A stretch of DNA of 64,000 nt from Methanobacteriota archaeon (GTDB lineage: Archaea; Thermoplasmatota; Poseidoniia; Poseidoniales; Thalassarchaeaceae). The stretch lies in assembly GCA_002718995.2 (NCBI GenBank), contig PBGL02000007.1, positions 36,622 to 100,621 of the forward strand, in the 5' to 3' direction. Within the stretch, counting starts at the first letter, position 1; the number at the start of each line of letters is the position of its first letter. A program made the translations under genes and the position numbers. The notes beneath the pieces were generated by a model, which searched no databases, was not told where the DNA came from, and saw only the letters and a list, made by a program, of their open reading frames with translations. Below, one piece after another: positions 497-19,559 of the stretch.

Positions 497-1474
497 TCAG
501 TCCTTTCTGAGCACTTCTCTCACTATGAATACTGAAAGTACGAATATTGCAACTATCCTCAAATCGAATTCGGATTCCTCCTCCTGTGGCTTCTGGGAGT
601 CGAATAATTCCATGGCAGAATCTATCTCAGGAGATTCTGAAGAAGAAAGAATCACAGTTCCCCCAACATGGTACGGAGATGACGAAATGAAGTCTCCGGG
701 AATCTGATCTTGCTTCACCGAAGACATTGCGATGTCACAAAGATCAGACTCGGACAAGTCACTTAGGGAATTGTCGAACACTCCGCTATCGTGAGTGAAA
801 AGCGTTAATTCGACCTCATAATGACTGGCTATGCTATTCATAATCAATTCTGCCATATCAACCTCGAAACCGACTAACTCTCCGTTATTTCCATACCTAG
901 TCATTGGTGACTCTTGGTCCAACATACAGACTCCCAAATCCGAATCCTCGTACAGTATTCTATGAAGCGTACCGCCTTCGGTGGGTGTAGGCCATGCATC
1001 CTCATAAGACTCGAAATCTGAAAAATCCAACTGTGGCCTGTCAGCGAACCAAAGTTGGTGTGTCGAAATTGCTGTTCCCCTCTGATGAATATCCGCCAGC
1101 GCGGAGTTGACTGCGTACCTCAGTTCGTCGTTCCCCAATTCCTGGGAATTATCCGATCTAATAATCGCGACGAAATAATCAGAAATATCAAACATCTCAT
1201 CTACGGCAATTGTGGGCCATTGAGCGATTACCTCGGAATCGGCCATTAAATGATGCGGGCCAATTAAGAAGTCAACTTCCCCGTCCCTTAGTGATCTAAT
1301 CGCAAATTGCACATTCTCAAACTCCATTTCCTCTAAGTCTGAATTCTGAGCTATGAAATGTGAGGACCCTTCTTCCGAAATAGTGCCAATTGAATAGATT
1401 GCTTCACCTGAAGCGACAAGCCAAGAAGAAGAGAGCAAAATCGGGACGATTAGCACAGCGGCAATCCCCCTCAT
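497..1474 (-). CDS. Membrane-anchored amino-acid ABC transporter substrate-binding protein (SBP_bac_3-like), apparently circularly permuted
   Basis: Signal peptide; lobe 2-like segment (aa ~26-144), then lobe 1-like segment with GELVGFEVDMAELI (aa ~178-278), then C-terminal TM. Divergent from the permease gene. Confidence 0.7.
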   Translation of the reverse strand: MRGIAAVLIVPILLSSSWLVASGEAIYSIGTISEEGSSHFIAQNSDLEEMEFENVQFAIRSLRDGEVDFLIGPHHLMADSEVIAQWPTIAVDEMFDISDYFVAIIRSDNSQELGNDELRYAVNSALADIHQRGTAISTHQLWFADRPQLDFSDFESYEDAWPTPTEGGTLHRILYEDSDLGVCMLDQESPMTRYGNNGELVGFEVDMAELIMNSIASHYEVELTLFTHDSGVFDNSLSDLSESDLCDIAMSSVKQDQIPGDFISSSPYHVGGTVILSSSESPEIDSAMELFDSQKPQEEESEFDLRIVAIFVLSVFIVREVLRKD

Positions 1475-1547: not shown

Positions 1548-3743
1548 TTGGGGCTCACCATGCTTGAAGGGAATTCTCGGCTCTCCAAGCCAAGGAGGGG
1601 GAGTATGTCGGCTCGGACAGTTTGCGTTGCCATAGTGATTCTTCTACTGACTTCTGTAAACCCTAGTCAAGCTACTGAATTTGAGAGTAGTTGGGAAATT
1701 GTAGAAAGCGGGACATCTGAAGATTTGCTGACCGCTGCTGAATTTGAGGGGGAGGTTTGGGCGTTTGGAACTGCGGGCGTCATGCTACGCAGTGGTGATA
1801 ACGGGGCTTCATGGACGGTTTACGAATCGCCGACCACAAGTGATATTCTGAACTCGGCCTCGGGTTTTGGTTCCTTGCTAATCTCCGGAGATTCTGGATT
1901 GGTACTCCTCAGGGAAAGTGAGAGCGATTCGTGGATCGATATTTCACTCCCAGAAGAGGATTCCGTAAATGGGATCTCGTTGACTGGCAGCGATACAGCC
2001 GTGGCAGTAGGAAATCATGGGACAATATGGAATCTGGATGGTGGCGTCTGGACGGAGACCGCTCTATCCATAGAAAGTGACCTTCTTGATGTGTCATTCC
2101 TGGATGAGGAACTAGGAATAATAGTCGGTTCCGAGGGGACGATTCTCTTTTCCGAAGATGGAGGAGAAAGTTGGGAGTATCGTGAGTCGCCCGAGGGAGC
2201 TGCCGGTGCAGTTATTGTGTCAGTAGAGTTCTACAGCCCCACTCGAATTTATGCCATTACAGATGATGGGAGGGTCCTTATCTCGATGAGCAATGTAGTT
2301 ACTGGGACTGATGTCGGATACATATGGAATCTTGTTGAGTTCGAGAGACACTACCCTCCAGGAACAAATGAGTACATCCTAGGGCCAGAGAAACTAGACG
2401 TACAATTGACCTCTATCGAAGTGGTTACAACGTCTAAGTTCCTGATGACGGGAGATGGGGGTTATATCTCCATGAGCGTCAATGGTGGGACGATAGTTTC
2501 GCAGCAGATTAACCCCCTTGGAAATAACAGTAACTTCAACGATATTGTGATGGTGACCGGATTCACGGGCGTGGCTGTCGGAAACGAGGGTAAAATCCTG
2601 TGGACAGAAAATGCTGGTGCAGACGATCAAGCGGGATTCGTAGTTCCTGAATACGGGAACTTCGGAGTATTTGTTGATGAGACAAAGGCCATGTTCCTAT
2701 CCGGATTTATCGCGACGCTGAAGATAGTAGCATTTGGAATTGTTCTGGGCTTTCTTCTGGGAGTTACCCTGGCAATGTGCAAAACATCACCAATTTCACT
2801 AAGGAACGTCGTAGAGCGATATGAACCGAAATATGTCAGAATCATTGGAATACCCCTACTGGCTGGCGGACTGCTGCAAATCTACTCCGCCATTCCGGGA
2901 GCGAGTGGTCTTGGACTTCAGGGTATTGAGTACATCTTCCTCCCAGTCGGGGCACCTGTTTCTTTTGCTAAGATTCTCTTAGGGATAGCGCTAATATTCA
3001 TTGGCACACTTTTCATTAGCAACGACAATAAATTTTCGAAAATCAATATTGGCCCATTTACATTGAATCCTTGGAGAGTAAGGCCACTGAATGCCATAGC
3101 GACAGTTTACACTGACTTCTTCCGTAACACCCCCTTAATTGTGCAGTTCCTATTCATACACTTTGGACTTCGGCTAGGGGCACTAATTCAAGGTCCCGGA
3201 TTGGAGATTTTTAGCTTCGAAAATTTGGAAAATAATCATAATTTTATGACAGACATTATTGCCACATATGATCATTCAGAGGGCAATTATGGAACACTGA
3301 TCGGCGGTGTTCTATACGACTCTGCTTTCATCAGTGCGATATGTGCTCTGGGATTCAATTCGGGTGCCTACCAATGTGAAACTATCAGGGGCGCGATACA
3401 GGCGATCCCATCTGCCCAGATGGAAGCTGGCAGGAGTATTGGCCTAACCTATCTTCAAACCATGCGAAGAGTGATCATGCCACAAGCAATCAGAATCTGC
3501 ATCCCTCCAATGGGCAATGAGATGGTCAATCTTGTACTAAACTCATCTCTTGCTATGATTATAGGATATGCTGAGTTGACTAGGCAGGGGAAGTTGATAG
3601 TCGCTAGTACGTTCCAATATGCATATGCTTGGGGGATGGTTCTGATTTCTTACTTCGTGGTGACGTGGACTCTTGCCCTGATACTCAGATGGCTAGAGGA
3701 AAAAACTAGAATTCCAGGATTGGGGATAACTGGGGGTGATTGA
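1548..3743 (+). CDS. Fusion of Ycf48/BNR-like beta-propeller with polar amino-acid ABC transporter permease (HisM/GlnP type)
   Basis: N-terminal half has repeats such as GTILFSEDGGESWEYRES and GVMLRSGDNGASWTVYES. C-terminal half has DFFRNTPLIVQFLFIHFG and EAGRSIGLTYLQTMRRVIMPQAIRICIPP (EAA-loop type). Confidence 0.85.
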   Translation: MGLTMLEGNSRLSKPRRGSMSARTVCVAIVILLLTSVNPSQATEFESSWEIVESGTSEDLLTAAEFEGEVWAFGTAGVMLRSGDNGASWTVYESPTTSDILNSASGFGSLLISGDSGLVLLRESESDSWIDISLPEEDSVNGISLTGSDTAVAVGNHGTIWNLDGGVWTETALSIESDLLDVSFLDEELGIIVGSEGTILFSEDGGESWEYRESPEGAAGAVIVSVEFYSPTRIYAITDDGRVLISMSNVVTGTDVGYIWNLVEFERHYPPGTNEYILGPEKLDVQLTSIEVVTTSKFLMTGDGGYISMSVNGGTIVSQQINPLGNNSNFNDIVMVTGFTGVAVGNEGKILWTENAGADDQAGFVVPEYGNFGVFVDETKAMFLSGFIATLKIVAFGIVLGFLLGVTLAMCKTSPISLRNVVERYEPKYVRIIGIPLLAGGLLQIYSAIPGASGLGLQGIEYIFLPVGAPVSFAKILLGIALIFIGTLFISNDNKFSKINIGPFTLNPWRVRPLNAIATVYTDFFRNTPLIVQFLFIHFGLRLGALIQGPGLEIFSFENLENNHNFMTDIIATYDHSEGNYGTLIGGVLYDSAFISAICALGFNSGAYQCETIRGAIQAIPSAQMEAGRSIGLTYLQTMRRVIMPQAIRICIPPMGNEMVNLVLNSSLAMIIGYAELTRQGKLIVASTFQYAYAWGMVLISYFVVTWTLALILRWLEEKTRIPGLGITGGD

Positions 3744-5902
<2,159 letters not shown>

Positions 5903-10077: not shown

Positions 10078-10575
10078 TTGGGGGTGAGTGATAGCATGAC
10101 ATGGAGGCGGTTGGAAATAGGCGACTCGAACGAAGGTGTGGGAGGTGAGTCTGATGTCGGAGGAACTTCCCTAGGGCTCGACGTTACTGCTTTCGAAGCG
10201 CATTCGCAATTCATCTCAGACCTACCTCACATGTCAGAGGTTTCGGAAGCTCATGGAGAATTCTTGGGGCAAGCTGGGAACGTACCTGAATCAGCTAGGA
10301 TGGCGAATAGCGATATCACAACTATGGGCGAGATGGTAGCTGATCTGGGGGGTTCAATAGAAGGTCATTTCATGGAGATTCCGATGCCTTCGGCGGATAG
10401 AAGGGGAGTTGTCCTCGAAGTCATGGAGGGAGAGAGTGGCACCATAGCCAGAATTATTGCCCCCAGTGGCTTTGGAGGTGTATTGAGGACATTTAGATTA
10501 CCCGCTGGCTCCTTCATCTCTGGTGCGTCGTGGAATGGCCATAACCTGGGGCTATCTCTAGAGGATCATTCCTGA
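10078..10575 (+). CDS. Hypothetical protein
   Basis: 165-aa ORF directly downstream of the helicase with a small beta-rich C-terminal part; no family recognised. Confidence 0.55.
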   Translation: MGVSDSMTWRRLEIGDSNEGVGGESDVGGTSLGLDVTAFEAHSQFISDLPHMSEVSEAHGEFLGQAGNVPESARMANSDITTMGEMVADLGGSIEGHFMEIPMPSADRRGVVLEVMEGESGTIARIIAPSGFGGVLRTFRLPAGSFISGASWNGHNLGLSLEDHS

Positions 10576-13500
10576 GGAACTATCGCTGACTCCCTAGATG
10601 GGACTTCCTCGAGTTGGTCGATCTCCTGTAGAACGGCACTAAGTGCCATCTGAGCACCTTCCCTGTGGGGCTCTCCGAGAACGTGGCTTGAGTATCTGGC
10701 CTCTTCGAAAATTCTATCCAGGGACAGGAGGGCCTGTTCGCTTATCGGAAGTGCGTTTCTTATTGCCAATTCGAACTCCCTGACTGTCTCGAAATCCCTC
10801 CTCAGGAAACCCCTGCTCATCAAAATCTGGCATAGTCCCTCGTAGCAGTTGAATATCGCCTCTCTGACCTCATCGCCAGCCGCTAGGAGTTCTGCTGTGT
10901 AGCTGAACACCCCGGCCAACTCGTCGATGGCTGCTTGCTTCCTCCTCCTGAGTAAAATCGCTCCGACTGCGGCTAACCCGATTATCACGAGCATGGCCAA
11001 AGCGGCCATGGCTGGACCGACGAGAGATGCTCCCTGCTCAGGCTGGTACTCCACTTCGACCACAGCGAACTGTGAGAGTCGGGCGGCGTCAATGGGGTCG
11101 ATGATATCTGAGTCCGAACTGAACTCTACCGAAAGGTCTCCCCAGAAGTCCCTGTCCCAAAGTGGGTGGCCCTCATGGAATGACTCGAAGTTGTACGTGA
11201 ATATACCATCCTGATTGGTGACTCCCACAACTGTAAAGTGAGTACTAGTCGCATTTACCAGTCTAGCTGTAATTGAGACGCCCTCGATGACCTCGACCCT
11301 GTCAGTGGCAGTGACATTGACCCTTCCCGAAAGGGAACTTTGGCCTATCTCCAGATACAACGAGTCGGGGATGAACTCGAAGTTTACAGGTACTTTGATT
11401 ACCACCTCGAACCCGATCTCGCCACCGTTCAGGAACCTGGAGGAGTCGGGGTCAACCACTATTGACATGCTCGCCGTACCAGGTGGCATTGTTGAAATCG
11501 CATTCGACTCGACCAGGAATTGCCCCGTAGTCTCGTCCCATGAAATCTTGGTATTCGGCCTTAGGGAGTCCCCCCAGTAGAGCGATAGGTCCATCTCCTC
11601 CATTGTATTTCCTTCCCCGCCGATTTCAATAATCCTACCAAGGACCCTTATTGGCCTATTTCCGTCACTTCTGACGACTTCGTCCTCCAGGAATAGTATC
11701 TCTATCTGAATGTCTGCCCTTGCATAGACGGTGGCATTGATGGAATTCGAGAGGTATAGTTGCTCCCCGGCAAAAACCAATGAAACATCATGCGAACCCC
11801 TTGATATCAGATAGCCAAGCTCGTGACTAATGCTGAATGTACCATCTATGCTGGTTGTTATGGTAGAAACTTCTTCTCCGTCCAGTAGGAAGGATAGCTC
11901 CCTCCCTTCCAGGCCGGGATTGCCTGTGGAGTCTGCATCGAATAACCTCCCCGTGAGATTCCATGAACCGCCTCTTGTCACCACGTTGTTCTCAACTTGC
12001 AGAGTCATTCCCGTGTGATACGCGATTGTTAGATTTGCCTCTACTGAACCTTCCCGGTGATAACCCTGATTCGGAGCTACTACAGTTAGCGTGTGCTGGC
12101 CCACATCCAAGAACTCTGAGACTACCCACGAATGGGACCAGAGTCCATCCTCGTCAGTTGTAGTTGTACCAATCAGGATTCCATCTATGAAAATCTGCAG
12201 TGAGTGGTTCTCTAGCCACCCATCCGGAAGGTTGTCCTTGACAGATCCACTGAGCTGAAGCACATCTCCAACTGCTACTGGGGATGGCTGTTCCACACTA
12301 ACCTCGGCAGGCCCGAAAACAGTGAATATGGTGGTCGAATTTGAACCTATGACAAACTCCTCGCCGCCGAACTCTATTCTGACATTCCTTGGCCCGAGAG
12401 GCATGTCCGGAGGTACTGGGAAGAATAGGCTAAACGTGCCGTTTTCAGTGACTGACAGTGAAGTTAGGAATTGATCATTCATGTAAACGTCGAGATTCCT
12501 TCCTGGAAGCACCCTTCCTGCTCCATCGGTTAGCATTCCCTCGATGAGCAATAGCTCGTTTCTATCGACCTCTCCCGGAGGCGTAGTGAGGACGACCTGA
12601 GAGGTCTGGGTCGCGTTGAATTCGTGTGTTAATGTGGAAGGGAGGTAGTACTCGGGATTCAACGAGTCCCCCTGGCCCATTGGATCTACCCATGTGAATC
12701 CACCTAGGAAATCGACAGTGAAGGTGTGGACCCCATAATCGGTATCTAGTGGCAAATCGTAAGTTATGCTCCATACCCCGGTGGAAGAGTTGGAAATGGA
12801 AGTATAGACAGGCCCCACATCAATTCCGTCAATAGAGAGGTGTACGACTCCCCCTTGGTCTTCGCCATTCTCGACAAGCGGCAATCCATGCTCATCGAGT
12901 AGCGTGCCGGTGAATGTGACTGTCTCACCAGCGATAGCGGAGCCAGTGACCGAAATCACATCTAGAACCGAGGGGGCGAGTATTACCACCCTAGTCCACG
13001 TCTCGTCACCCAGTAGTCCGGTTGTACCATTGATACCCGCGAATGTAGCTGTAATGGTCATTGGCCCGGGAGCCCTGTTGGGATCAGTTGTGATCACAGT
13101 TGTAAGAATGCCCCCTTCATCGGTAAGGCCCGACCAAGATTGTACGCCGTCTATTGAAACATCGACTTGAGCCCCGGGTACAAACTGTCCGGAGTTGTCG
13201 ATAAGGGACATGTTTAGTGTTATGTTGTCCCCTCTTACCGTCCTCTCATCGGGATCTAAGTCCGTAGGGGATATTATTGAGAGCATTGAGAAACCCCTGC
13301 TATCAAACGTGCCATCCTCTGAGCTGGGGCCGTAGTAGTTGACGGAAGGGGTGTATGATGCAGTGATATTGTGTGTACCGCGGGGGAAAGAGAGGTCAAG
13401 GAATATCCTAGCTGACCATGATCCGTTTGCGTCCACGGTCCCGCCTGTTACTGAGAATGAGTTTGTATCCCCGTCGATCGCGAAGTTGAGTGTAGGATTT

Positions 13501-16500
13501 AGGGCGTTACCGGCTCTGTCGACTATTCCACTGCCATTGCTTGAAGTGAGTGTTCCGCTGATATCCAGGAACTCACCAGCAGCGGGATTTGACGTAATTG
13601 GATCAAATGTTATGTTGGTAGGGGATCTGACTGTGATTGTGTTGATCACCGTAGAGGAAGGGTGAAGGGTATCTGAGCCGTTGGAGCCGTTGAAAAAGAG
13701 GAAAATTGGCATTAGCCCCAGAGGGTGAGAATGGGGGACAGAGAATGTGAAATTGACTAAACCCTGGCCATTAGTAGGTTGTTCCGGTATCAGCCAGGTC
13801 TCATGGAATAATGCCGAAACTGACATGTCGGAGAGTTGCCTATCCCCATCACTTGATTCGACCAGCCTTGCTCCGAATGTGATAGACGTCCCTCTGTCCA
13901 CTATGGTGTTTAGGATGGGATTCCTGTCAGTAATTTGGGTAACGCCACGAACTAGGATAGTTTCATTCCCAGTTCCCGTCAGATAGAAGGGAGTACTGCC
14001 ATTTTCCACGCTCACAACTACCGTCTTGAGACCATTAGTTACGCCGTCCCCAAGTGGATCGGTGGGGACTGATATTGAAAACGAGCCATTTGCTGCAGTA
14101 ACGTGTCCTGTGATTAGAGTCTCACTGGGGTCATTCAAGAAAAATACCTCCACCGTCATAGGCCCCGATACCGAGCGATTCTCATCCACGCCATCTAGGA
14201 CCTGGCCCTGTAGTTGGAAGAACTGCCCGGCAGTTACTTCTGGCAATGGCGAGTTGTCGATTCTTATGCTACTCGCAACCTGCACCGTCAGGTTGACCAC
14301 GCTCTCGTTCCCAATCCACCTTCCAGCATTTGGTGTAGTCAAACTATCAGTTAGGTCGTCAGGGGCGTGGAGTCTGACATCATAGTAACCAGGGGGGGCA
14401 TCTGCGGGGATTGTCGGGGTGAACCTCGCGACACCATCCGACCCAGTGACAGTGGAATTGAGAACCTGCTGCAGAGGGCCGCCCCAATCGAAGTACAGAT
14501 CGACAGTAGTATTCTGCAGTCTGTTATTGCTCTCGACATCGGTGACTGTGGCATTCGAGATCAAAGTCTGGCCCGCGATTACGATTGACTGCAGTGGTTC
14601 TGCTTCCACCACATACTCGGTCTGGACCCCTGCTTGGAGGACCACTGCCCCGGGAACCAAGTAGTAGGCCCCGCCTGTGGGAGGGCTCTTCTCAAAGTCA
14701 AGAATCAGCCTGAGGTCGTACACACCGGCTCCAACGCCAGCGGGCATCTGGAAGGTGATGTTGTACTCTCCTGTCGTATTATCTATCCACTGCTCCCCGA
14801 GCCTGTAAGTTACTGGCGGGGCGTCTAGGCCATCGGGAGTAGGGGGTTGGTCGGATGGGACTTCCATGTTGATAATGATCGAGGAGTTATTGCCCAGTAT
14901 TGTGCTGTTTAGGTTAATGTCTCTCGCAAAGCCGGAAATCCATGAGGACTGGCCGCGGGGAGTCCATTCCGAGCCAAGCGTGAATGAGACGTCAGCTCTT
15001 CCTTGAACTCTTACGGTATCTAAAACGCTGTTAGGAAGAAGCCAAGTTGACCCACTGAAGTTCAGTTGCCAGGGGTAGTCTCCGGCCTCCATATCTATGG
15101 TTGGCCTGAACGAAACCATCACACGGGGAAGCTCTGGATCAGACTGGTTCCATGCCAACTCACCGTTGAAGTCCAGTGTGTAGTCTCCAACGAAACTCGC
15201 AACAGAATTACCAGTGTGGTCAGACAGCGTAACTTCGACCTCAGAGTCTGATCCGACAGGGGCTGGATTCAGTATGTAACTGAAATTTACATAGCTCTTT
15301 ACGCCATGCTCATCGATTACTACTGATTCGTCTTTCGCGAACAAGCCATCAGCTTCGAACTGATATCTGATTTCCACAAGACCGGCAGGAACTGGAACCT
15401 CTGACGCCGAGAATGACCAGTTGACTGCGAATTGGCCCAAGGCCCCCGTCCAGTCTGAGTCATTGAGGTACCATGAGTTCAGTGTGGTGAAGGGACCGTT
15501 GGCTGCGGATCGGCGCATCTGCAATGTTAGGGTGCCATTGAGTGCCTCTGGGATGATTGACCTGCTGAGTACGGTGCCGTTCAGATATATCGGCTGGTCG
15601 ATTTCTAGAATGGTATTGTTCAAACCCTGGCCCTCCAGAGTCACTGTGAGATTAGGTGCTGGAGTAAGGTTGAGATTGAGTCCTACTGACTTGGGGCGCA
15701 GGTGGTAGAGGGGTGAGCTTGCATTGTTGAGGTCCTCTTCGTGCCAACCTAAGAAATTCAGAGTAGCGGAAATTAGCCCCTCCTGCTCCGATTCATCTAT
15801 TGGGACCGAGAATTCGTAATATCCGCCTGCACCAACACTGGAAATCAGACTAACTGGACCATCGGCTGAGGTAGTATAGTTTAGCACCACTTGCAGGCTA
15901 TCTAACTGTGTAATATCGTTGTAGGGCTCACTTGATAGAGAAATTTCCCCCACGAGTGTCGTGTTGACTCCGATGCCTATCTTTGGCTCGTCCGCGGGCT
16001 CAGGCTCTGTTATTGACATGGCCACATCGTCAGTGATATTCAACCTCCATGGGAAAGTAATGCCCTGTGAGCCGACATATCCATTCTGGTACGTACGAAG
16101 TACAAGGGCGCCATAGCCCGGATTAATCACCTCCTGAGGCTGTCCTGTGATATTGAAAGAGCCGTTCTCATCAGTCACAGCGGATCCCACATAATGCTCT
16201 TCCAATGCTGCAGAACCGGGTATATTCTCGGTCTGATTTGACTTCACCAGATACATGTCAATTGTAATATTCCCAACAGAAGTCTGATTTTCAGTGAACC
16301 TCAATACCCCATCGAGGGAGAGATTCCCTGAAGACAGATCCCTTTCAAACCAAATCGGACCCCGATTCTCATCTACGACTTCGACGGTAGAGAGGGAAGG
16401 GCACGCCTCAAATGGGATCCAACCGAGATCGGCATTACCCAAGTTGGAGTTAGTCTGGAGATGGACCTCGACCCATGTCGTGAAGTCTTTTCCATACACC

Positions 16501-19500
16501 TCGAAAGACGTGCCTGTCCACTTTCCTCCGGAGAAGCCAGTAACCTTACGAGCAGGTATTCCAGCGGAACGTAACATTACAGCAAAAAGCGTACTGAACT
16601 GATCGCAATCGCCCTCGAATGAGTTATTCAAGATCCAGTAGGATAGGTCGTCCTCATCATCTAGAACCCCCACTTCTGTCCCATTGTGATTCCTCAGGAA
16701 AGTAGTAGTGGAATTTCCATTAATGATAAAGTCCTGAATTGCCGACACTCTATCCCAAGCCGAGAAGGCGCCTGACTCGTTGATTACTGTCGTTGTTATG
16801 GAATTGACGAAGTTGGCTGCGTTCCCCTTTGCCAGATATGAGCTAGGAAGGTCGGTCGCATAGGTACTATTGGCGAATTCAGTGGTATTTTCCCTAATAG
16901 CCTGTGTAATCAAAACTTGTGGAGCGGTGACGAATAGGGTATCTATGGTGGCACCGTCCACTATTGCGTCCCTGGTGAAGTTCGAGAAATTGAGTCCTGC
17001 ATTCGCATCGGTCCATCCTGTGTAATTGACAGCATTGTGAGGGGCTATGATTTCCTCACCGGGGAAAATCAGAGCTCCGGACTCGAGGGATATCTCCCAA
17101 CCGAGTACCTCGGAGCCGTCCCAGAACTGTTGGTCGGCAACGCCCTGCGTCGTAGAGAATCCGGGGAACATCTGAGTGTTTCCAACGAGGCTGGTGTTGA
17201 CACCCCAAGAAATCCCCGTGTAGAAGTCGTATGTATGCCACCTCCAGTAATGAGTGATATTGGGATCGACCCCAGCAGATGTGTTCGTGGCCTCGAAGAA
17301 CATCATGTTGGCATCTATATCGTCTGCGGGATCCCAAGGATTTCCATCGGCATTTAGGCAATTAATGTCCCAAAATTCGGAAGTACACTCCTGGCCATCA
17401 GGTATTCCTCCTCCGTCTGTATCCGGATCCCTCCAGTCTGTGCCGGTGGAATTCTCGATTGTGTCCGGTATTCCGTCCCCGTCGGTATCTACTGGGTTAA
17501 GATCGTCATTAGGGTTATTCTGGGGATTTGTCCCATCTAGGTACTCCTGGAAGTCGGTCACCCCCCCATTGTCCGTGTCGGTTACATTCCACAATGTGAA
17601 GTAAGTATCAGTAGTGGCGTTGCCCCCTAAGTCACCGAAGGCGACAAGGCAAACCGTTGTATTCTCAAAGTAGTTGTTTAGCCCGTCCCCATCTGAGTCC
17701 AGTAGGTTATCGCAGGGGTTGCTTGGATCGGTGAGGTTCAGGATCTCGTCTAAATCATTAACTCCATCGCCGTCGGTATCTGACATATTCCAGTCAGATA
17801 AGAAACCAAAACTTCCTGTTGATTCCTCCCAGTCAGCCAGGCCATCCCCATCAGTATCGAAATAGTCATCGTCGCATATCGGATCATTGGACAACCCGAG
17901 CGATTGATCCCAGCACCAAGAGAAATTTACGAATGTCACGGATGTAGCGTCAGGAGGCTTGTCCGTGTCTATGCCCCTCAATGCATCTCCATTGATGGAT
18001 GTGAATCTAAAACCGGTTAGACTGCCATTAGTTGATGAGACATAGAATCCCATTGGCTCCCCATTCTGCCTCCAATCCTCGGGGGTCTGGTCGAGCGCGG
18101 AGGTATCGTTCAACGTAAGTACCATATTAGTGGCATCGAAGTCTATGATAGTCAAATTCAGCGTTTGCAGGGAGGTGCATGGATCGGTGCCATGAGATGG
18201 GTCGAGTTCAGAACCGTCACTAATTCCCCCTCCGTCTGTATCCGCAACATTCCACAGGGTACATGTCATATTTTCTTCCCAATTTGGTATTCCGTCATCA
18301 TCGAAGTCGCCCGAATCCTCAATCCTAGTTGGATCAGTCTCATTTTCATCGACGATGCCGTTTCCATTCAGATCCTCCTCGCCGTCATCGAACTGGTCAT
18401 CATCTGTATTGTTGTCCCTTGGATCGCTTGCTAAAGGAGGGTCACCATACTGCGCATTGACCTCGACGCCGTCGCTAATTCCGTCTCCATCGGTATCGGA
18501 GGAAGTCGGGTCAGTAAGCAAGACGAGTGCCTCATATGAGTCATTTAGGCCATCGCCATCAGTATCATTCAGTTGGGGGTCTGTGGAGGTTATTCCGTCT
18601 ACCTCGGCGGTGAAAATAAGACAACCGCCCGGACCCAGCAGAAGTACCGGGTTGCAAGGCGATTCTGTGGCCGTCATGCTCAAAGGACCAGGGCGGAAAT
18701 ATTGGGTGGGAGGAGTGGTAGAACCATTCCTGGTCCCCCAAGCAGGGTTGACGAATTCCTTCAGGTTGACCAGCCCATCGCCATCTGGATCCCCGAATGC
18801 TCCGTCTTGATTGGTGCGGGAGGTTGGATCTAGGCCATTTGCTACCTCCCAGCCGTCTGGCATACCATCTCCATCGGTGTCCCAACCATTGGGATCCTCA
18901 TCGATGGCTCCATCGCCATCATCGTCATCACTGGTGCAGTTTGAGTCCCCGTCCCCGTCTGCATCGAAATTATCGACCAGTCCATCCTTGTCATCATCGA
19001 ATGAATTGAAGCAGATATTACCCCAGGGATCCTCATCGGCTCCGTCTGAACCCAATCCCTGAATGAGCTGCATGGCGCTCTCCTCGTCCCAATTACTTAC
19101 TGGGACGGTACCATTCCACCAAACGCCATTGTCCAGCTCATTTGGAGTATTTGTGGAGTCCCAATTCGCTGGAATTCCATACATGTACTCATTCAGATTA
19201 GAAAGAGAGTCGCCATCTGGATCGCCGGTTGACCCATTATCGCCTGTTGCGGAAAGGGGATTAAGTCCGTATTGCCATTCCCAGCCGTCAGGGAGGCCAT
19301 CATTGTCAGTGTCCCAGTCCTGGGGCTGAGTATTGATGTAGAACTCAAGACCATAGGAAAGGCCGTCGCCGTCCTGGTCGGTGGATGCCAATGCCTCCCA
19401 TGAAGCAAACTCCAATGCTGAGTATGAAGAAAGGAGCATCAAGATAGAGAAAATAATGGCTGACCGGCTCTTACTGAGCCCGTCCTTATCCAACCCTTTG

Positions 19501-19559
19501 GATTGATTGAATGAGCCCATGCTACGCAACCCCTTGCTCTTGGGCGCAAAGTAGGGCAC
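10566..19559 (-). CDS. Giant secreted/surface protein: TSP3-like Asp-rich repeats, transglutaminase-like domain, Ig/carboxypeptidase-regulatory-like repeats, C-terminal TM and DUF4129-like domain
   Basis: Repeats of DTDGDGxxD type; GDCDQFSTLFAVMLRSAGIPARKVTGFSGGKW transglutaminase core; many 'GxPLxGxxVxLxxDG...TDxxGxxxxxxxxP' modules; TM AMAALAMLVIIGLAAVGAILLRRRK; C-terminal helical domain. Confidence 0.85.
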   Translation of the reverse strand: MPYFAPKSKGLRSMGSFNQSKGLDKDGLSKSRSAIIFSILMLLSSYSALEFASWEALASTDQDGDGLSYGLEFYINTQPQDWDTDNDGLPDGWEWQYGLNPLSATGDNGSTGDPDGDSLSNLNEYMYGIPANWDSTNTPNELDNGVWWNGTVPVSNWDEESAMQLIQGLGSDGADEDPWGNICFNSFDDDKDGLVDNFDADGDGDSNCTSDDDDGDGAIDEDPNGWDTDGDGMPDGWEVANGLDPTSRTNQDGAFGDPDGDGLVNLKEFVNPAWGTRNGSTTPPTQYFRPGPLSMTATESPCNPVLLLGPGGCLIFTAEVDGITSTDPQLNDTDGDGLNDSYEALVLLTDPTSSDTDGDGISDGVEVNAQYGDPPLASDPRDNNTDDDQFDDGEEDLNGNGIVDENETDPTRIEDSGDFDDDGIPNWEENMTCTLWNVADTDGGGISDGSELDPSHGTDPCTSLQTLNLTIIDFDATNMVLTLNDTSALDQTPEDWRQNGEPMGFYVSSTNGSLTGFRFTSINGDALRGIDTDKPPDATSVTFVNFSWCWDQSLGLSNDPICDDDYFDTDGDGLADWEESTGSFGFLSDWNMSDTDGDGVNDLDEILNLTDPSNPCDNLLDSDGDGLNNYFENTTVCLVAFGDLGGNATTDTYFTLWNVTDTDNGGVTDFQEYLDGTNPQNNPNDDLNPVDTDGDGIPDTIENSTGTDWRDPDTDGGGIPDGQECTSEFWDINCLNADGNPWDPADDIDANMMFFEATNTSAGVDPNITHYWRWHTYDFYTGISWGVNTSLVGNTQMFPGFSTTQGVADQQFWDGSEVLGWEISLESGALIFPGEEIIAPHNAVNYTGWTDANAGLNFSNFTRDAIVDGATIDTLFVTAPQVLITQAIRENTTEFANSTYATDLPSSYLAKGNAANFVNSITTTVINESGAFSAWDRVSAIQDFIINGNSTTTFLRNHNGTEVGVLDDEDDLSYWILNNSFEGDCDQFSTLFAVMLRSAGIPARKVTGFSGGKWTGTSFEVYGKDFTTWVEVHLQTNSNLGNADLGWIPFEACPSLSTVEVVDENRGPIWFERDLSSGNLSLDGVLRFTENQTSVGNITIDMYLVKSNQTENIPGSAALEEHYVGSAVTDENGSFNITGQPQEVINPGYGALVLRTYQNGYVGSQGITFPWRLNITDDVAMSITEPEPADEPKIGIGVNTTLVGEISLSSEPYNDITQLDSLQVVLNYTTSADGPVSLISSVGAGGYYEFSVPIDESEQEGLISATLNFLGWHEEDLNNASSPLYHLRPKSVGLNLNLTPAPNLTVTLEGQGLNNTILEIDQPIYLNGTVLSRSIIPEALNGTLTLQMRRSAANGPFTTLNSWYLNDSDWTGALGQFAVNWSFSASEVPVPAGLVEIRYQFEADGLFAKDESVVIDEHGVKSYVNFSYILNPAPVGSDSEVEVTLSDHTGNSVASFVGDYTLDFNGELAWNQSDPELPRVMVSFRPTIDMEAGDYPWQLNFSGSTWLLPNSVLDTVRVQGRADVSFTLGSEWTPRGQSSWISGFARDINLNSTILGNNSSIIINMEVPSDQPPTPDGLDAPPVTYRLGEQWIDNTTGEYNITFQMPAGVGAGVYDLRLILDFEKSPPTGGAYYLVPGAVVLQAGVQTEYVVEAEPLQSIVIAGQTLISNATVTDVESNNRLQNTTVDLYFDWGGPLQQVLNSTVTGSDGVARFTPTIPADAPPGYYDVRLHAPDDLTDSLTTPNAGRWIGNESVVNLTVQVASSIRIDNSPLPEVTAGQFFQLQGQVLDGVDENRSVSGPMTVEVFFLNDPSETLITGHVTAANGSFSISVPTDPLGDGVTNGLKTVVVSVENGSTPFYLTGTGNETILVRGVTQITDRNPILNTIVDRGTSITFGARLVESSDGDRQLSDMSVSALFHETWLIPEQPTNGQGLVNFTFSVPHSHPLGLMPIFLFFNGSNGSDTLHPSSTVINTITVRSPTNITFDPITSNPAAGEFLDISGTLTSSNGSGIVDRAGNALNPTLNFAIDGDTNSFSVTGGTVDANGSWSARIFLDLSFPRGTHNITASYTPSVNYYGPSSEDGTFDSRGFSMLSIISPTDLDPDERTVRGDNITLNMSLIDNSGQFVPGAQVDVSIDGVQSWSGLTDEGGILTTVITTDPNRAPGPMTITATFAGINGTTGLLGDETWTRVVILAPSVLDVISVTGSAIAGETVTFTGTLLDEHGLPLVENGEDQGGVVHLSIDGIDVGPVYTSISNSSTGVWSITYDLPLDTDYGVHTFTVDFLGGFTWVDPMGQGDSLNPEYYLPSTLTHEFNATQTSQVVLTTPPGEVDRNELLLIEGMLTDGAGRVLPGRNLDVYMNDQFLTSLSVTENGTFSLFFPVPPDMPLGPRNVRIEFGGEEFVIGSNSTTIFTVFGPAEVSVEQPSPVAVGDVLQLSGSVKDNLPDGWLENHSLQIFIDGILIGTTTTDEDGLWSHSWVVSEFLDVGQHTLTVVAPNQGYHREGSVEANLTIAYHTGMTLQVENNVVTRGGSWNLTGRLFDADSTGNPGLEGRELSFLLDGEEVSTITTSIDGTFSISHELGYLISRGSHDVSLVFAGEQLYLSNSINATVYARADIQIEILFLEDEVVRSDGNRPIRVLGRIIEIGGEGNTMEEMDLSLYWGDSLRPNTKISWDETTGQFLVESNAISTMPPGTASMSIVVDPDSSRFLNGGEIGFEVVIKVPVNFEFIPDSLYLEIGQSSLSGRVNVTATDRVEVIEGVSITARLVNATSTHFTVVGVTNQDGIFTYNFESFHEGHPLWDRDFWGDLSVEFSSDSDIIDPIDAARLSQFAVVEVEYQPEQGASLVGPAMAALAMLVIIGLAAVGAILLRRRKQAAIDELAGVFSYTAELLAAGDEVREAIFNCYEGLCQILMSRGFLRRDFETVREFELAIRNALPISEQALLSLDRIFEEARYSSHVLGEPHREGAQMALSAVLQEIDQLEEVPSRESAIVPQE
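16400..16800 (-). other. Transglutaminase-like domain within the giant protein
   Basis: Cys/His region EGDCDQFSTLFAVMLRSAGIPARKVTGFSGGKWTGTSFEVYGKDFTTWVEVHL. Confidence 0.75.
17400..19400 (-). repeat. Coding tandem-like Asp-rich (thrombospondin type 3-like, calcium-binding) repeats
   Basis: Recurrent DNA motifs such as ccgtcgccgtcggtatc encoding DTDGDG; translation repeats DTDGDGxPDxxE. Confidence 0.75.

Follow-up and report, generated by a model that had tools for sequence, protein, structure and literature searches.

A gene on the reverse strand of the window (the whole stretch of archaeal DNA analysed here, 64,000 nucleotides) encodes a protein that, judging from its profile matches and relatives, is almost certainly a true circular permutant of an amino-acid-binding protein of class F (type II, SBP_bac_3). 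Each segment of the family's fold occurs once in this protein, which we call protein A, in rotated order and with the ancestral termini joined. The open reading frame at 497..1474 begins with ATG and is divergent to the gene of a transporter permease, which is followed by an ATPase gene and then by a glutamate dehydrogenase gene. The features of the locus, with the basis for each assignment, are as follows.

497..1474 (−): protein A, circularly permuted SBP_bac_3 protein, 325 aa (profile matches, homologs)
1397..1474 (−): putative signal peptide, residues 1–26 (inspection; low-confidence N-terminal helix 4–14 in the model)
1040..1396 (−): lobe 2 and the C-terminal helices returning to lobe 1, residues 27–145 (canonical second half, AncQR ~119–232)
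971..1039 (−): linker from ancestral C terminus to ancestral N terminus, residues 146–168, ending WPTPTEGG (homolog comparison)
596..970 (−): first helix, β1, α1 and the rest of lobe 1, residues 169–293 (canonical first half, AncQR ~9–117)
566..595 (−): acidic stalk, residues 294–303 (sequence; pLDDT <50 at 293–303)
509..565 (−): C-terminal transmembrane anchor, residues 304–322 (sequence; predicted helix; conserved in homologs)
1548..3743 (+): PAAT-type permease (BPD_transp_1, HEQRo_perm) with an N-terminal YCF48/BNR β-propeller (profile matches; start codon position uncertain)
3744..4520 (+): GlnQ-type ABC ATPase of the same importer (profile matches)

Swapped segment order in protein A

The motifs of the two lobes had been reported in swapped order by an earlier note, and profile searches confirm that order at the same places. 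Pfam PF00497 matches protein A with an E-value of 3.6e-9 and 36.9 bits, above the curated cut-off of 26.4, and does so in two stretches: residues 182–284 align to profile positions 3–97, and the N-terminal half, when searched alone as the note had proposed, aligns to positions 87–131. Against the solved AncQR, residues 29–144 of protein A correspond to 124–232 and residues 195–283 to 27–108, and the NCBIfam GlnH, ArtI and cystine-SBP models return the same swapped order. The lobe 1 segment closes with a 'DL'-type helix just past the hinge. Beyond it, the sequence and an AlphaFold2 helix at residues 305–322, conserved in homologs, uphold the proposal that the protein is anchored in the membrane at its C terminus.

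Homologs with the order that the note had suggested looking for are found, over the full length of the protein, in 17 genomes from three genera; one relative, whose protein is 91% identical, comes from a contig bearing the label Euryarchaeota archaeon UBA173, and the host apparently belongs to Marine Group II / Poseidoniales. Such recurrence refutes the idea that protein A is an assembly chimera or annotation artefact, to which we attach next to no weight. The assemblies are fragmented drafts (30 contigs for genome G000) and the UBA173-labelled record is a metagenome-assembled genome, which would leave room for such an error, but the same architecture and synteny recur in the 17 genomes and again in those of a second family, and the substitution patterns are of coding type.

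A rotation scan with a profile of solved structures was set aside as stand-alone proof, the bit gain being too small: restoring the canonical order of protein A adds a mean of only 1.9 bits. Protein A is too diverged for such a scan, and the case for it therefore leans on its orthologs.

Intact permuted orthologs in a second family

When the phylum was searched with a relative in canonical order, orthologs of 319–331 aa emerged in a different family belonging to the same class (f3). They too have the transmembrane anchor, and their genes adjoin those of the propeller-fused permease and the ATPase in the same divergent locus. When compared with a canonical-SBP profile, built from only four solved or reconstructed canonical SBPs, the f3 orthologs match positions of about 112–221 first and then 2–111, with no gap and no overlap (residues 32–138 and 175–289, respectively, in one example). 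Each half-match scores about 52–57 bits, and reordering the sequence canonically gives a single match of 117–122 bits covering positions 2–221. These exactly complementary pieces support the earlier reading of a circular permutation of SBP_bac_3.

The main proof for protein A itself comes from turning the f3 orthologs into a profile: all 16 protein A homologs examined give one collinear match (E-values of 7e-13 to 3e-28), so the permutation takes in the whole of protein A rather than being a chance pairing of half-matches. Across the loci examined, we find 75 distinct SBP proteins, 61 with swapped and complementary matches, 14 with a single full-length match and none with redundant coverage. 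Tandem or redundant intermediates were sought among these 75 proteins and none was found; no chain among the 61 swapped proteins carries two complete substrate-binding domains.

Related forms of the same fold

Two further groups, B and C, present the same binding protein in other forms. B is a paralog, a lipoprotein of ~1050 aa present in most host-family genomes with the permease, in which the first ~270 residues are the same SBP cut between α1 and β2; two binding domains of LIV type make up the remainder, and the gene next to it encodes a LIV-type permease. Residues 213–260 of B correspond to 14–61 of AncCDT-1 (5t0w) and residues 14–188 to 62–245, so that the coverage is contiguous and nothing is doubled, and canonical reordering gains 26–39 bits in 36 of 36 cases examined. 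Protein A, the f3 orthologs and B are thus all rotated relative to the canonical order of lobe 1, lobe 2 and return helices. At L046:4091–7225 (−), a triple binding-protein lipoprotein with a permuted SBP_bac_3 domain and two LIV-type domains adjoins a 1252-aa BPD_transp_2 permease.

C, found in two genomes (G035 and G303), is a canonical-order SBP inside larger proteins that contain LDL-receptor-A repeats. Archaeal proteins of 892 and 1202 aa, encoded at L044:3–2678 (−) and L124:4534–8142 (+), respectively, contain LDL-receptor class A repeats together with an SBP_bac_3 domain in canonical order. A further, separate SBP, AapJ-like and likewise in canonical order, is encoded with two permeases and an ATPase on one contig (L123:2460–8213, −). 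Lobe 1 of A, B and C has in common a pair of cysteines at matching positions (C183 and C246 in A; C36 and C227 in the B domain), which is absent from the f3 orthologs and could form a disulfide.

AlphaFold2 models protein A with moderate confidence (pLDDT 71.6, pTM 0.63) and B as one confident domain (pLDDT 86.9, pTM 0.84), and the predicted secondary-structure elements of the two correspond one for one after rotation. The top Foldseek match of B is AncCDT-1, with an r.m.s.d. of 2.0 over 179 columns. Protein A retrieves type II folds with TM scores of only 0.2–0.3; Foldseek aligns sequentially, and low values of this kind are what a permuted chain should give, so that these matches lend the permutation weak support. 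Protein A would presumably close into a single two-lobe clamshell.

The alternative raised in the earlier note, that protein A is two degenerate half-SBPs in tandem, remnants of different full SBPs that share no single clamshell, finds no support and strikes us as very improbable. It could draw on the divergence of protein A and its only moderately confident model, but the pieces in the f3 orthologs and B are complementary without overlap, none being redundant, both of their lobes have intact sites, and B is predicted as one domain.

Loss of the amino-acid site and the proposed role of protein A

In LAO and GlnH, the amino acid is held by an arginine of lobe 1, an aromatic residue of the β1 loop and an aspartate of lobe 2. 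Among the 15 protein A sequences compared, the arginine is retained in none, the aromatic residue in none and the aspartate in two; the arginine of TxxR and the aromatic residue of YPPF are replaced in every one. The class F ligating residues that protein A lacks are all kept in the f3 orthologs (4/4) and in B (18/18).

Protein A is nevertheless under purifying selection, with dN/dS values of 0.05–0.12 in most close pairs and 0.26 in g11, compared with 0.05–0.06 for the permease. The regions read share the divergent arrangement purC, A, permease, ATPase, and the loci of the f3 orthologs contain the same propeller–permease fusion. In at least ten genomes protein A is missing, and purC there directly abuts an intact permease. 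The propeller of the permease is presumably outside the cell and might serve as a docking platform for the SBP. Elsewhere in the window, 10566–19559 (−) encodes a 2997-aa protein in which inspection by eye picks out numerous acidic repeats of calcium type and a stretch resembling a transglutaminase.

We propose that the ancestral C and N termini, both in lobe 1, were joined by the linker and that the chain was opened at the crossing between lobe 1 and lobe 2; protein A would then start with lobe 2 and end with lobe 1, from which the C-terminal helix would hold it to the membrane. It would descend from the working receptor of the neighbouring propeller-fused permease and GlnQ-type ATPase, a receptor that f3 appears to keep intact. 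In the lineage of the window, B has its amino-acid site intact and probably serves as the binding protein. Protein A, its site lost but the protein kept by selection, would most likely be either a tethered accessory subunit or a receptor for a ligand other than an ordinary α-amino acid. This account as a whole, from permutation and receptor descent to the present division of roles, is one that we hold to be probable; for the accessory role of protein A taken by itself, we put the chances at about even. Partnership of protein A with the permease is suggested by the locus, and co-occurrence and site conservation are likewise our guide to which gene product would feed the permease in family f1.

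A narrower proposal is that protein A, rather than being an accessory that binds nothing, still serves the neighbouring permease as its specific receptor but for a different ligand, such as a peptide, a non-α amine or an osmolyte. We regard it as a credible minority reading: selection on protein A is close to that on the permease, its position beside the permease is fixed in every genome read that bears it, and it has conserved residues of its own, but the canonical ligating arginine and aromatic residue are gone from all 15 homologs compared, and the permease is kept in genomes that lack protein A. The simplest reading, we infer, is that B took over amino-acid binding and that protein A persists as an accessory subunit or changed-ligand receptor that is sometimes lost.

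Origin of the cut points

Five of the six B proteins tested have linkers homologous to those of the f3 orthologs, with z scores of 6–13 against 1000 shuffles, as illustrated by GDEIVVLTDDTDANTADAYP and EGAVVLTDDRDANTATAYP. The linker of protein A compared with that of f3 gives z of about 1–1.6, with no recognisable similarity; in the A proteins and in a divergent B (L055), linkers are too changed to tell homology. The flanks of C are somewhat similar to the linkers (z 2–5). A phylogenetic tree sets A, the f3 orthologs, B and C, the last in canonical order, apart from canonical SBPs as a single clade with support of 100/100. AU tests reject no alternative branching of A, f3, B and C, and a tree with C outside every permuted form has P = 0.066.

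Because the f3 and B linkers are homologous, one end-to-end fusion probably preceded both cuts, and on these sequence comparisons a single ancestral fusion was probably trimmed in two ways, giving the A/f3 cut and the B cut. Independent origin of the A-type and B-type permutations, without one end-to-end fused ancestor, seems unlikely to us. The cut points do differ between the two types, C lies in canonical order within the same clade, and the tree leaves the branching of A, f3 and B with C unsettled; against this stand the homology of the f3 linkers with most of those of B and the partial similarity of the C flanks.

More tentatively, the fused ancestor, whether tandem or cyclic, may have acquired three different openings within one archaeal class: A and f3 at the boundary between the lobes, B between α1 and β2, and C in the linker itself, with the canonical order restored. 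If true, C would be a natural reversal of circular permutation, with remnants of the linker on both sides.

Comparison with known systems

Protein A shares its profile and secondary-structure elements with the class F, or type II, polar amino-acid SBPs (PF00497; GlnH, HisJ, LAO, ArtJ, AncQR and AncCDT-1), and shares with them its operon partners, a PAAT permease and a GlnQ-type ATPase. It differs from them in its rotated segments, its ancestral termini joined by a linker, its C-terminal transmembrane anchor and its lost amino-acid site. The fold of class F binding proteins is familiar from textbooks and widely used as a scaffold for biosensors; two natural cut points beside a transporter bear on which openings of the clamshell evolution tolerates, and offer ready-made permuted scaffolds. 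Amino-acid SBPs of MGII have been noted previously at the annotation level (PMC6336850), and in these archaea annotation by profiles breaks up the permuted receptors or overlooks them.

In the literature searched, in which coverage of subscription papers was limited so that silence is not proof of absence, we came across no description of a permuted SBP of class F, and TpMglB-2 (Tp0684) was the only natural permuted SBP found. TpMglB-2, of 'type Ic / cluster Bc', is a natural, family-wide circular permutation of a membrane-tethered ABC binding protein, for which tethering was suggested as a reason for the permutation (PMC4990184). Natural permutation is thus already known for a type I SBP, and the class F case is apparently unreported. 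Protein A resembles TpMglB-2 in being a naturally permuted, membrane-tethered ABC binding protein; unlike protein A, TpMglB-2 has a type I, cluster B sugar-binding fold, is cut inside the N lobe, comes from bacteria and has had its binding shown experimentally (PMC4990184). The profile matches of A and the fold matches listed for A and B are to type II rather than to a type I, cluster B fold.

In GlnPQ, the tandem SBD1–SBD2 places SBP_bac_3 domains end to end (PMC8025302), which is the likely kind of precursor for A and B, although GlnPQ has two complete domains in canonical order and A and B contain each segment once. The permutation-by-duplication model holds that end-to-end fusion is followed by trimming at new places (PMC3320104). 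The case described here departs from it in that the SBP proteins examined include no redundant intermediate, but the model fits the two cut points, those of A/f3 and of B, and the homologous linkers make this a case for tracing permutation by duplication.
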